Below, piece after piece: positions 25,445 to 32,690 of a stretch of 33,946 nucleotides of DNA. Where the stretch lies: positions 1 to 33,946 of the forward strand of contig CAMNNA010000003.1 in assembly GCA_946545285.1 (NCBI GenBank), written 5' to 3'. Position 1 is the first letter of the stretch, and every line of letters begins with the position of its first letter. Below the pieces are notes generated by a model. That model worked only from the letters and a program-made list of their open reading frames with translations. It had not been told where the DNA came from and did no database searches. This DNA comes from an uncultured cyanobacterium (GTDB lineage: Bacteria; Cyanobacteriota; Vampirovibrionia; Gastranaerophilales; Gastranaerophilaceae). A program made the translations under genes and the position numbers.

Positions 25445-25555
25445 TATCTTTTACTCCTTGTTTTATATTATCCCAATGTTAATATTTAGTCAAAAGTGTT
25501 AAATGTTTTTATTTTTTTGGGATTTTATTGTATTATATTTTGCGAAAGGATTTTT

Positions 25556-25963
25556 ATGTTAAGTATTGAACATTTTGAACTTGCATACGAAACATTAAAC
25601 AAGAGTTATTTAGCTTATGAAAAAAATAAGGATTCTGAATTTGCTGAATTTATTGAAGATTCGTGTGTGAAACGATTTGAATATACACTTGAAACAGCTT
25701 GGAAACTTATGAAAAAAATTCTGATAAAAAAATACGGTAAAACCGACTCTGAATTAACAATTAACAATATATTCAGATTTATGCAGGGTTATGGTTATGC
25801 GCAAAATTGGGAAAACTGGAAAAAATATTATCAGCAAAGAAATAATACCGCTCATGAATATAATATTGAAAAATCAAGAAATTTAGTTTTGTTGATACCT
25901 GAATTTTTGAATGATGTCGTATTTTTAATAAACAGATTAAAAAAGGATAAAGACATTGATTAA
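25556..25963 (+). CDS. HEPN protein (HI0074 / HepT-like putative toxin)
   Basis: RFEYTLETAWKLMKKIL and RX4HXY motif RNNTAHEY. Confidence 0.85.
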   Translation: MLSIEHFELAYETLNKSYLAYEKNKDSEFAEFIEDSCVKRFEYTLETAWKLMKKILIKKYGKTDSELTINNIFRFMQGYGYAQNWENWKKYYQQRNNTAHEYNIEKSRNLVLLIPEFLNDVVFLINRLKKDKDID

Positions 25964-26246
25964 GGGAATTTCTGAAACTGAATATCAAATAATAAATTCA
26001 ATATTATCGCCGTATAAAGATAAATATGAATTTTATTTTTACGGATCAAGAGTAAAAGGTGATTTTCGGGATTTATCAGATTTGGATATTTTGATTAAAG
26101 GTAAAAATTGTGCTGATATTATTGAGAATTTGGAATATATGTTTGATAAGAGCAATTTGCCATATGTTGTAAATATCAGTGATTTTAATAATTTAAATAA
26201 ATCTTTTTATGATTTAATAGAAAAGGATTTAGTAAAGGCGATATAA
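25956..26246 (+). CDS. MNT minimal nucleotidyltransferase (MntA-like putative antitoxin)
   Basis: GSRVKGDFRDLSDLD = GSX10DXD; overlaps HEPN gene by 8 nt. Confidence 0.87.
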   Translation: MIKGISETEYQIINSILSPYKDKYEFYFYGSRVKGDFRDLSDLDILIKGKNCADIIENLEYMFDKSNLPYVVNISDFNNLNKSFYDLIEKDLVKAI

Positions 26247-29784: not shown

Positions 29785-30690
29785 CTATCCTGCAATGAAT
29801 TTTGCCAAAATTTCGGGGTGATTGGAAATTAATATATCCGCAAATTTTTCAGAATCAATTTGTGAAATTACGATAGTCATCAAATCGCGAGGTAATTCTT
29901 TTATCATGTTTTGCAGGTATTCCGGTTTAATTACCCCCATTGATTTTATTAAATCACTTTTATTTCGTTCATTTTTTATGATTTTTGTATAAGTATCAGC
30001 TTCAAATTTTTCGAATAAATCCGGATGAGATTTTGTTATTGCTAAGGTAAGTTCTTGTTTTTGCACATAATGAAGATTTTCGATTGCGTTTTTGTAATCT
30101 TGAGGACTTAGCTTTTCTATCGTTGCTACCAATTCTTCTGAAGTGCCGTTTTGTTCTTCGCCTGTTACACTTTCTAATATTTGTTGTAAGTACATTGCAG
30201 GAATTGATGTTAATTCCTTTAATACCAAATCTTTATCCATATCAAATGCTGTTAAAAATTTATTCAAATCTTCTTCCGGAATTAAATTAATCAATTCTTC
30301 TTTTTCAAACATCTGGAACACTGTTTTTACAAGTTCTTCCATCGGAATATCTTTTAATAAATCTAATAATTTTTCTTGTGAAAAAAATTGTAATCCTGCG
30401 ACTAAATCATCTGTTTCAAGGGATGATATAAGCTCTTTCAAAGCGTCATTGTCCATTTTATTCATAATGATTATCTTATTACTTGGATCTGCAAGTTGAA
30501 ACAGCTCAACAAGCTGCTGCGGATCTGTAAACATGTCTGCCGCAAGTTTTATTGCTTCAAGGTTTCCTTGTGCTGCTTCTGATAATAAAATTTCTTCAAC
30601 AGTGCTGTTTTGGTATTGTTGAAGTCGTGATTCCGGAATGTTTAACCGTGATTTTAAATATTCAAATTGTGATTCAATTATTAGTCCCAT
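29785..30690 (-). CDS. Helical-repeat protein resembling MgtE_N/FliG-like repeats
   Basis: Repeated short helical motifs such as MDNDALKELISSLETDDLVAGLQFFSQEKLLDLLKDIPMEELVKTVFQMFEKEEL. Confidence 0.6.
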   Translation of the reverse strand: MGLIIESQFEYLKSRLNIPESRLQQYQNSTVEEILLSEAAQGNLEAIKLAADMFTDPQQLVELFQLADPSNKIIIMNKMDNDALKELISSLETDDLVAGLQFFSQEKLLDLLKDIPMEELVKTVFQMFEKEELINLIPEEDLNKFLTAFDMDKDLVLKELTSIPAMYLQQILESVTGEEQNGTSEELVATIEKLSPQDYKNAIENLHYVQKQELTLAITKSHPDLFEKFEADTYTKIIKNERNKSDLIKSMGVIKPEYLQNMIKELPRDLMTIVISQIDSEKFADILISNHPEILAKFIAG

Positions 30691-30836: not shown

Positions 30837-31109
30837 ATGAGTTTTGATGTTAACATCGGCAGAAGTGAACCGGTTATCAAAGCAGCCGCAAATATGAATA
30901 ATGATGGCGGCAGCGGCGGTAATTTAGGTTACATGATGGGTGGTGGTGACGGCGAAAATCAAAAGAAAAAAAATCCTTATGGAAGTATTTTTGAAAATGA
31001 TAAAAATGAAATTGATATGTTTGTTATGAATTCCAAACTTCCGAAAAATGATTATTATGAAGAAGATTCTTTAATAAAAAAATTATTTAAAAAATTTACA
31101 AAATTTTAG
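30837..31109 (+). CDS. Hypothetical Gly-rich small protein
   Basis: 90-aa ORF, NNDGGSGGNLGYMMGGGDGEN; weak RBS. Confidence 0.5.
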   Translation: MSFDVNIGRSEPVIKAAANMNNDGGSGGNLGYMMGGGDGENQKKKNPYGSIFENDKNEIDMFVMNSKLPKNDYYEEDSLIKKLFKKFTKF

Positions 31110-32011
31110 GCATTAGACAAATACCGCCGATTTGCTATTTAAAAATCTATGAACCGTTGCAAAAAGATTGGCAAACATACCAAAGAGTAAAAAATATTGT
31201 AAATCGAATTAAAGTTCATGCCAACAATGGAGATTTCAAATCCGTTGCCAGTGATTTAGGGAATTTTGCAAGCAACAATCAAAGACAAATCATATCTGAT
31301 TTATTACAACCAAATGTAAAGCTACAGAATAATATTAATAACGTAAAAGAAATCATTAATAAATACCATTTAGATGATGAATTCAAATATGCCTTAAGCA
31401 GCAATACAAGTGGCATAAGTAGCAGTGCGGATTTTACTGATTATGGTAATGGAAATATAAAAATAAATAATTTCTTAAATAAAAATAGACCAAATGCAAA
31501 AGAAATGGCAAATATATTTTTAGCAAAACCACAAAATATACCGTTAAGTAAAGAATATAGTTACATTCCTAAGGGTAATGCTAATATATTAAATTACAAA
31601 TATAAATTATTTGGAACGAATAAGGAAATCCCTCAGGACTGGGAAGGTATTGTTTATAATCAATATAGTTCATTATTCAAAAATGTTTCAAATTCTATCG
31701 AAATACAAAATAAAATTCGAGAACAATATAACATTATGCGAGCTGATAGACTTAATGACAAATTCGAAGTTGATTTCTCAAAGGATTCTAACTTACATTT
31801 ATCAATAGGACATGCAACAGTTCTTGAGCCTTACATTGATTCGCAGGGATATTTTCATGGGATTCTTTTTGATAAATATGATTTTGATAATGAGTATTTA
31901 AAATATTACTCTAACTTAAAAACAACTATTGTTAATAATTATTTTTGGGTAATTCAACATGAAGCTGGGCATAATTATTATATCCTTGCTCCAATTTTAT
32001 TTAAATGGTAG
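31091..32011 (+). CDS. Putative displaced polymorphic-toxin C-terminal region, no conventional start codon
   Basis: Frame open from 31091; first usable start TTG 31157 lacks an RBS; C-terminus LHLSIGHATVLEPYIDSQGYFHGILFDKYDFD...VIQHEAGHNYYILAPILFKW. Confidence 0.45.
   Translation, partial: KIYKILGIRQIPPICYLKIYEPLQKDWQTYQRVKNIVNRIKVHANNGDFKSVASDLGNFASNNQRQIISDLLQPNVKLQNNINNVKEIINKYHLDDEFKYALSSNTSGISSSADFTDYGNGNIKINNFLNKNRPNAKEMANIFLAKPQNIPLSKEYSYIPKGNANILNYKYKLFGTNKEIPQDWEGIVYNQYSSLFKNVSNSIEIQNKIREQYNIMRADRLNDKFEVDFSKDSNLHLSIGHATVLEPYIDSQGYFHGILFDKYDFDNEYLKYYSNLKTTIVNNYFWVIQHEAGHNYYILAPILFKW
31136..31170 (+). repeat. Repeat copy A (35 nt), coding YLKIYEPLQKD
   Basis: 28/35 identical to 32570-32604 by eye. 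Confidence 0.75.
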
Positions 32012-32020
32012 TATTACCTT

Positions 32021-32548
32021 ATGGTAAATTTTTACAAAACTAATAAAGATATAATATACACAATAGGCATACATATTCTTATGCCTATTGTGTATTGTTT
32101 TATTTTTATATCTACACTAATAGTACCCCTTTTATTATTCTTAAATGAATTCTCGCAAGATATAGAAAATCCTTTGGGATTAAATATTAAAACTTTTGTA
32201 TTTATATTTTTTTATATATTTATTATGTTTCTTTTTATATTACGACTATGCATACTACCTTGTGTTTATGGGTACTTTGAAAAAAATTCTAATAACATTA
32301 GACTGAAAAATTTTATACATAATTTAAAACATAATTATCTGTATAGATTGCTTATACTGATTATTATTGAAATTCCATTTTTGATATTAGTATTAAATGC
32401 AAATACTGTTCATAATCCGCCTTATTGGGAGCGTATTGAGCTGCATGCATTATTAACTTGTACATGTGATTTATTAGGTTGCTATCTTGTATTATTTCTA
32501 TGGTGGGATATACAAAAATTTATAAAAAAAATTAAAAACAAAACATAA
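32021..32548 (+). CDS. Multi-pass membrane protein (about 4 TM), putative immunity protein
   Basis: Hydrophobic segments IGIHILMPIVYCFIFISTLIVPLLLFL, FVFIFFYIFIMFLFILRLCIL, LLILIIIEIPFLILVL, LGCYLVLFLWWDI; begins 9 nt after the toxin-like ORF. Confidence 0.6.
   Translation: MVNFYKTNKDIIYTIGIHILMPIVYCFIFISTLIVPLLLFLNEFSQDIENPLGLNIKTFVFIFFYIFIMFLFILRLCILPCVYGYFEKNSNNIRLKNFIHNLKHNYLYRLLILIIIEIPFLILVLNANTVHNPPYWERIELHALLTCTCDLLGCYLVLFLWWDIQKFIKKIKNKT
32056..32095 (+). repeat. 16-bp perfect inverted repeat within the membrane-protein ORF
   Basis: ATACACAATAGGCATA-CATATTCT-TATGCCTATTGTGTAT. Confidence 0.95.
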
Positions 32549-32569
32549 AATGCAACAAACAGAACAGAG

Positions 32570-32604
32570 TATTCAAAAATATACGAATCATTACAAAAGG
32601 ATTG
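32570..32604 (+). repeat. Repeat copy B (35 nt), coding YSKIYESLQKD
   Basis: 28/35 identical to 31136-31170 by eye; followed by a stop codon. Confidence 0.75.
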
Positions 32605-32650
32605 CTAATTAAAAAACAAAAAACAAAAAACAAAATATTCTATACAAAAA

Positions 32651-32690
32651 AACTGCCGGTGTTTTATTAAAAATCATCGGCAGTTTTTTT
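32651..32690. terminator. Rho-independent terminator, possibly bidirectional
   Basis: AACTGCCGGTG...CATCGGCAGTTTTTTT between converging genes. Confidence 0.88.

Follow-up and report, generated by a model that had tools for sequence, protein, structure and literature searches.

A probably silent and horizontally relocated cassette of a putative toxin tip and its likely immunity gene in an uncultured gut and rumen bacterial lineage

The window, the whole stretch of 33,946 nucleotides analysed here, harbours a small cassette on the forward strand, located between an unrelated small gene (90 aa) and lpxA. The cassette includes an open frame (31091-32011) without ATG or GTG, as the earlier note had claimed for its 284-aa ORF; the sole candidate start is a TTG at 31157, which lies within a linker repeat. 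Between 31136 and 32011 the frame corresponds to the C-terminal 291 residues of a 460-aa protein of the related genome G012 and constitutes an orphan toxin C-terminal region. Its variable tip domain of 174 aa (31487-32008) contains the motif DKYDF (31871-31885). A 175-aa ORF (32021-32548) begins 9 nt past the stop of the startless frame and encodes a membrane protein with four predicted transmembrane segments, in agreement with the earlier description of a multi-TM ORF at this place. This protein is the probable cognate immunity protein, and no clear ribosome-binding site precedes its ATG at 32021. The coding sequence of the membrane protein includes a perfect 16-nt inverted repeat with an 8-nt loop (32056-32095), and a terminator-like inverted repeat with a T run is present between the cassette and lpxA (32646-32690).

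Two copies of a 35-nt repeat bracket the cassette, both on the forward strand, at 31136-31170 (YLKIYEPLQKD) and 32570-32604 (YSKIYESLQKD). The copies are identical at 28 of the 35 positions and share no exact 9-mer, and four of the seven differences, read from the sequence, are synonymous in the frame common to both. No other pair of 35-mers between 30600 and 33000 reaches at least 28 matches, and the best pair in dinucleotide shuffles (n=40) had 26. The protein score of the 11-residue pair was 45, compared with 29-37 in shuffles (n=12). The repeat reported in the earlier note therefore stands in its coordinates, identity and synonymous changes, above shuffle level in both nucleotides and protein. 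Its extent had to be revised, since the actual linker extends to about 46 residues, and the 35 nt are merely the overlap of the left breakpoint, situated in one linker, with the right breakpoint, situated in the next. Copy 1 matches the linker of full-length toxins, and copy 2 is the cut-off beginning of the next cassette, after which the linker is shortened and ends in an early stop. An apparent short similarity was also seen between the two outer junctions (GATTTGCTATTTAAAAA / GATTGCTAATTAAAAA).

The search of the window frame against 59 related genomes revealed matches in 22 of them, mainly from the same genus. Where the source is given, the assemblies carrying full-length parents are from uncultured rumen or ruminant-gut organisms, suspected to be Gastranaerophilales. 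The parents of sister species are 450-490 aa long and possess a conserved N-terminus, a coiled linker (KIYEPLQKDWQEYQ) and a variable C-terminus. Full-length proteins with the linker ahead of variable C-termini, which the earlier note had proposed to look for, were found in genomes G012, G016, G033, G021, G034, G064, G002 and others. In the first four, the window frame matches the C-terminal portion of proteins of 458-469 aa. These type (i) parents start with M[Q/E]KQIHVNSYVKxDGTQVKEHFR, followed by a glycine-rich hydrophobic stretch, a coiled segment up to TEYxKIYEPLQKDWQEYQ, and the tip. A second N-terminal type, type (ii) (MANLKDFFNKVSNNNRIFTAEDIGEMSGNEY...YVHSYTKADGTQVKAHYRS), bears related tips, and one N-terminus of this type bears an unrelated C-terminus matching serum amyloid A (PF00277). 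Intact parents share the motif [Y/F]-x-[R/K]-x-DGT-x-V. The toxin-type N-terminus fused to the PF00277 domain (E 1.4e-18) lies at L020:7187-7951 and is followed by a small lipoprotein-like ORF.

Behind the parents, the gene order consists of a small membrane protein and then more startless cassettes of linker-tip frame and membrane protein. The genome of G012 encodes a full toxin with its membrane protein; behind these lie a second linker-tip frame, which has no start, and a further membrane protein. The cassette arrays of G016 and G064 are degraded, and toxin fragments with internal stops occur in some other genomes. G181, which belongs to another genus, possesses one full toxin and six further tip frames, four of which begin from a common leader (KGILSFRQKLFQPTQM) that mostly overlaps the end of the membrane-protein gene ahead. 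Matches to the tip profile were detected in 170 out of 383 genomes of the order, distributed over 32 of 52 genera. In the window's own assembly (93% complete) we could find neither a linker-bearing parent, nor a second copy of the tip, nor an N-terminus of type (i). The viral contigs and the phage and plasmid records searched did not contain relatives of the toxin or the tip, and the full-length proteins had no strong match in PHROG.

Tips are swapped at the linker. Two toxins of the G012 genome are 81% alike in the N-terminus and 83% in the linker, and 27% in the tip. Similar values were obtained for the toxins of G012 and G034 (82%, 87% and 28%), whose tips are still distantly related. The reverse pattern was found between G012 and G033, with 65% for the N-terminus and 87% for the tip. 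The family possesses two of the features expected of polymorphic toxins, a conserved N-terminal region with unrelated or strongly diverged C-termini, and standalone startless tip/immunity cassettes. Tips and membrane proteins also diversify together. Behind 50 of the 51 distinct tips whose downstream ORF could be read lies a small protein with at least three predicted membrane segments, and tip similarity correlates with membrane-protein similarity (Mantel r 0.67, 0/5000 permutations), a correlation to which linkage alone could contribute. We infer that the tip is toxic and that the membrane protein neutralises it.

By comparison with Rhs/CDI-like polymorphic toxins, the earlier note had interpreted the locus as a silent toxin-tip/immunity module of a system whose parent protein carries KIYExLQKDW. 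The module was supported by the linker-bearing parents, the startless arrays and the linker-to-linker unit, and the likeness to Rhs and CDI holds for the way of working. It does not extend to membership, as the parents are neither VENN-demarcated CdiA nor YD-repeat Rhs proteins and have no Pfam match. Similar to orphan cdiA-CT/cdiI modules, the cassettes combine a startless tip with immunity and follow the same array order (PMC3150448). In CDI orphans, homology begins at one VENN sequence and stops precisely at the following one (Poole et al. 2011, PMC3150448), and the same between-strain pattern, from the demarcating motif precisely to that of the next orphan, is seen here. However, the window unit lacks VENN, is demarcated by a coiled linker and has moved outside any array. 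In the silent-cassette loci of Neisseria MafB, too, the toxin gene has startless CT cassettes behind it, each accompanied by an immunity gene, and one tip can be full-length in one strain and a cassette in another (PMC4287609). Unlike in MafB, the N-terminus and tip are different, no mafA partner was seen, and several parents are linked to a phage portal. The latter position is shared with the MuF toxins of temperate phages, which are encoded directly downstream of the portal and have variable tips and adjacent immunity (PMC5576092; Bxa, PMC11699363). Nevertheless, no MuF domain (PF04233/PF06152) was detected in the full-length toxins, and the host cluster appears vertically inherited rather than part of an active prophage.

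Homology between the window and the G012 cassette covers exactly 31136-32604, beginning with base one of repeat copy 1 and ending with the final base of copy 2, so that the copies are the exact left and right ends of the shared unit. The two sequences are 98.4% identical (23 differences in 1469 nt), and eight of the 23 differences fall in one 57-nt patch within the linker. This identity is far above that of core genes of the same two species, namely uvrC (79%) and lpxA (82%), and indicates recent horizontal transfer. Taken together, the exact linker bounds and the identity of 98.4% versus 79-82% argue for a horizontally acquired, relocated linker-to-linker unit. Each repeat copy of the window pairs with its own G012 linker, and the repeat was therefore inherited from the array and not created on insertion. 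Since the gene order is reshuffled in the genus, an exact empty insertion site was not found among the relatives examined, where other genes flank lpxA and the 90-aa gene.

Very probably, the window element is such a relocated cassette, comprising an unexpressed tip and its immunity gene, and was copied horizontally from the array of a relative. One linker-to-linker unit, made up of the silent toxin tip, the immunity gene and the first bases of the linker of the next cassette, would have been copied into the site between the small gene and lpxA. The stored cassette could then donate a new tip or act as spare immunity. An alternative origin, in which deletions removed the N-terminal part and the remaining array of a full toxin locus once present at this site and left a dying gene instead of a stored or transferred cassette, is somewhat unlikely. 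It would be in agreement with the missing start codon, the truncated neighbouring linker with its early stop, and the clear fragments with internal stops in other genomes. However, each end of the element falls precisely within a linker, neither of the two reading frames is broken, the sequence is nearly identical to that of G012, and no portal or N-terminal remains are present beside the cassette. There is a lesser but real chance that the membrane protein is expressed alone and kept as standing immunity, protecting against relatives that bear this tip, with the tip itself as baggage. The immunity ORF is intact, and orphan immunity genes of CDI systems are thought to be protective (PMC3150448). 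Nonetheless, the lack of a clear ribosome-binding site speaks against expression, and standing immunity would leave the retained open tip frame unexplained.

In several genomes, the gene immediately ahead of the toxin gene matches the SU10 portal (PF23899) and phrog_332. The window genome possesses the corresponding cluster on contig C8, with genes for an endolysin, a virion protein, capsid, a scaffold-like protein, a tail protein, small terminase, an acetyltransferase-like protein, portal and large terminase. Past the large terminase, a gene starting with MTTEERIVHVRSYYKKDGTFVR, an N-terminal motif of the toxin type, runs into the contig end. The cluster measures about 9-10 kb, and its gene order is kept (G000:C8 = L212; L213, L214, L215, L217, L257). 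Nearly all genomes of the genus encode one copy of the capsid (79-87% identity), which was found in 159 out of 383 genomes of the order; the portal was found in 45 of the 46 genus genomes. Portal distances track those of lpxA (r 0.66, 0/5000), and portal pN/pS is about 0.02-0.22. Where the cluster was read, it adjoins housekeeping genes, and no integrase or replication gene was recognised by this reading, as opposed to a profile scan. As expected of a gene transfer agent, the structural cluster is present in a single copy, apparently inherited vertically, and under purifying selection. The literature searched on such agents in this lineage contained nothing relevant. The head/packaging cluster looks like a domesticated locus and is possibly gene-transfer-agent-like.

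The position immediately after the portal, which is that of MuF toxins, was compared in 30 genomes; it is occupied by the large terminase in 16 and by a toxin-type start in seven. Other toxins are located at chromosomal sites, with no phage gene within the flanks examined. Given the [Y/F]-x-[R/K]-x-DGT-x-V motif of the intact parents and the position of several of them right after the cluster's portal gene, the most likely delivery route would be the loading of toxins into phage-head particles. A further step would be that the inherited head cluster is a particle system which loads swappable tips as cargo and also spreads cassettes as DNA, like a gene transfer agent, the window cassette being a delivered copy; we consider this combined scenario unlikely. 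A separate motif, F-T-x-E-D-I-x-x-M-S-x-x-E-x-x-x-N-E, occurs both in toxin N-termini and in a protein of the cluster whose gene lies upstream of the portal (L130:13383-14012, L017:1-174, toxin N-terminal type (ii)), and in some genomes it is present near the C-terminus of a post-portal protein. It may be a possible capsid-loading signal.

Comparison of the tip with Pfam, NCBIfam, PHROGs and PDB sequence profiles revealed nothing significant, and the tip constitutes a new family at the sequence level. Across 39 diverse tips, the first D of DxYD[F/Y] is the only invariant residue; the Y and the second D, together with an N further on, are near-invariant. The DKYDF of the window is identical to the D226-KYDF of colicin M, in which the motif reads D226-KYDF-NAST-HR236 and D226, Y228, D229, H235 and R236 are essential (PMC8469651). 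In addition, colicin-M orthologs have known immunity partners that are integral membrane proteins (PMC8469651). An early low-confidence model (mean pLDDT 52) had its best PDB matches in B. fragilis BtpeA (E 0.008) and PaeM (E 0.14). However, the tips contain the DxYD and not the HR of the colicin M motif DxYD(x5)HR, which places them outside the colicin M family, and both fold matches disappeared with a better tip-only model (pLDDT 69.5, pTM 0.68), which had no match in the PDB. A fold search of a viral library returned no match either. The assignment of the tip as a periplasmic lipid II hydrolase of the colicin M kind is tentative, with appreciably less than even chances, and colicin-M-like attack on lipid II is a weak leading guess for the tip. 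From the motif and the membrane-bound immunity, by analogy with colicin M, a lipid-linked cell-wall precursor might be the most likely target. The sequence HEAGH close to the end of the window tip resembles the HExxH of metallopeptidases, a reading that was highly improbable and was refuted by alignment, as relatives of the same subtype carry IARGH, INGH or LLNGH there.

A silent relocated toxin-tip/immunity cassette is a known kind of object; here, its protein family and its setting are new. The range of swappable-toxin cassettes is thereby extended to an uncultured gut/rumen lineage, in several species of which the parent genes are housed in an apparently domesticated phage-head locus. As the libraries searched (Pfam, NCBIfam) lack this tip family and parents occur in such a locus, it becomes testable whether inherited phage heads serve both the delivery of antibacterial proteins and the trade of the corresponding genes.

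Two further loci of the window were recorded. A 301-aa protein on the reverse strand (29785-30690) matches the MgtE intracellular N domain (PF03448, E 4.9e-9) without the transporter part. Neighbouring look-alikes of a HEPN-type (HI0074-like) protein and a minimal nucleotidyltransferase, a frequent toxin-antitoxin pairing, were found at 25496-26246 when the translations were read by eye.
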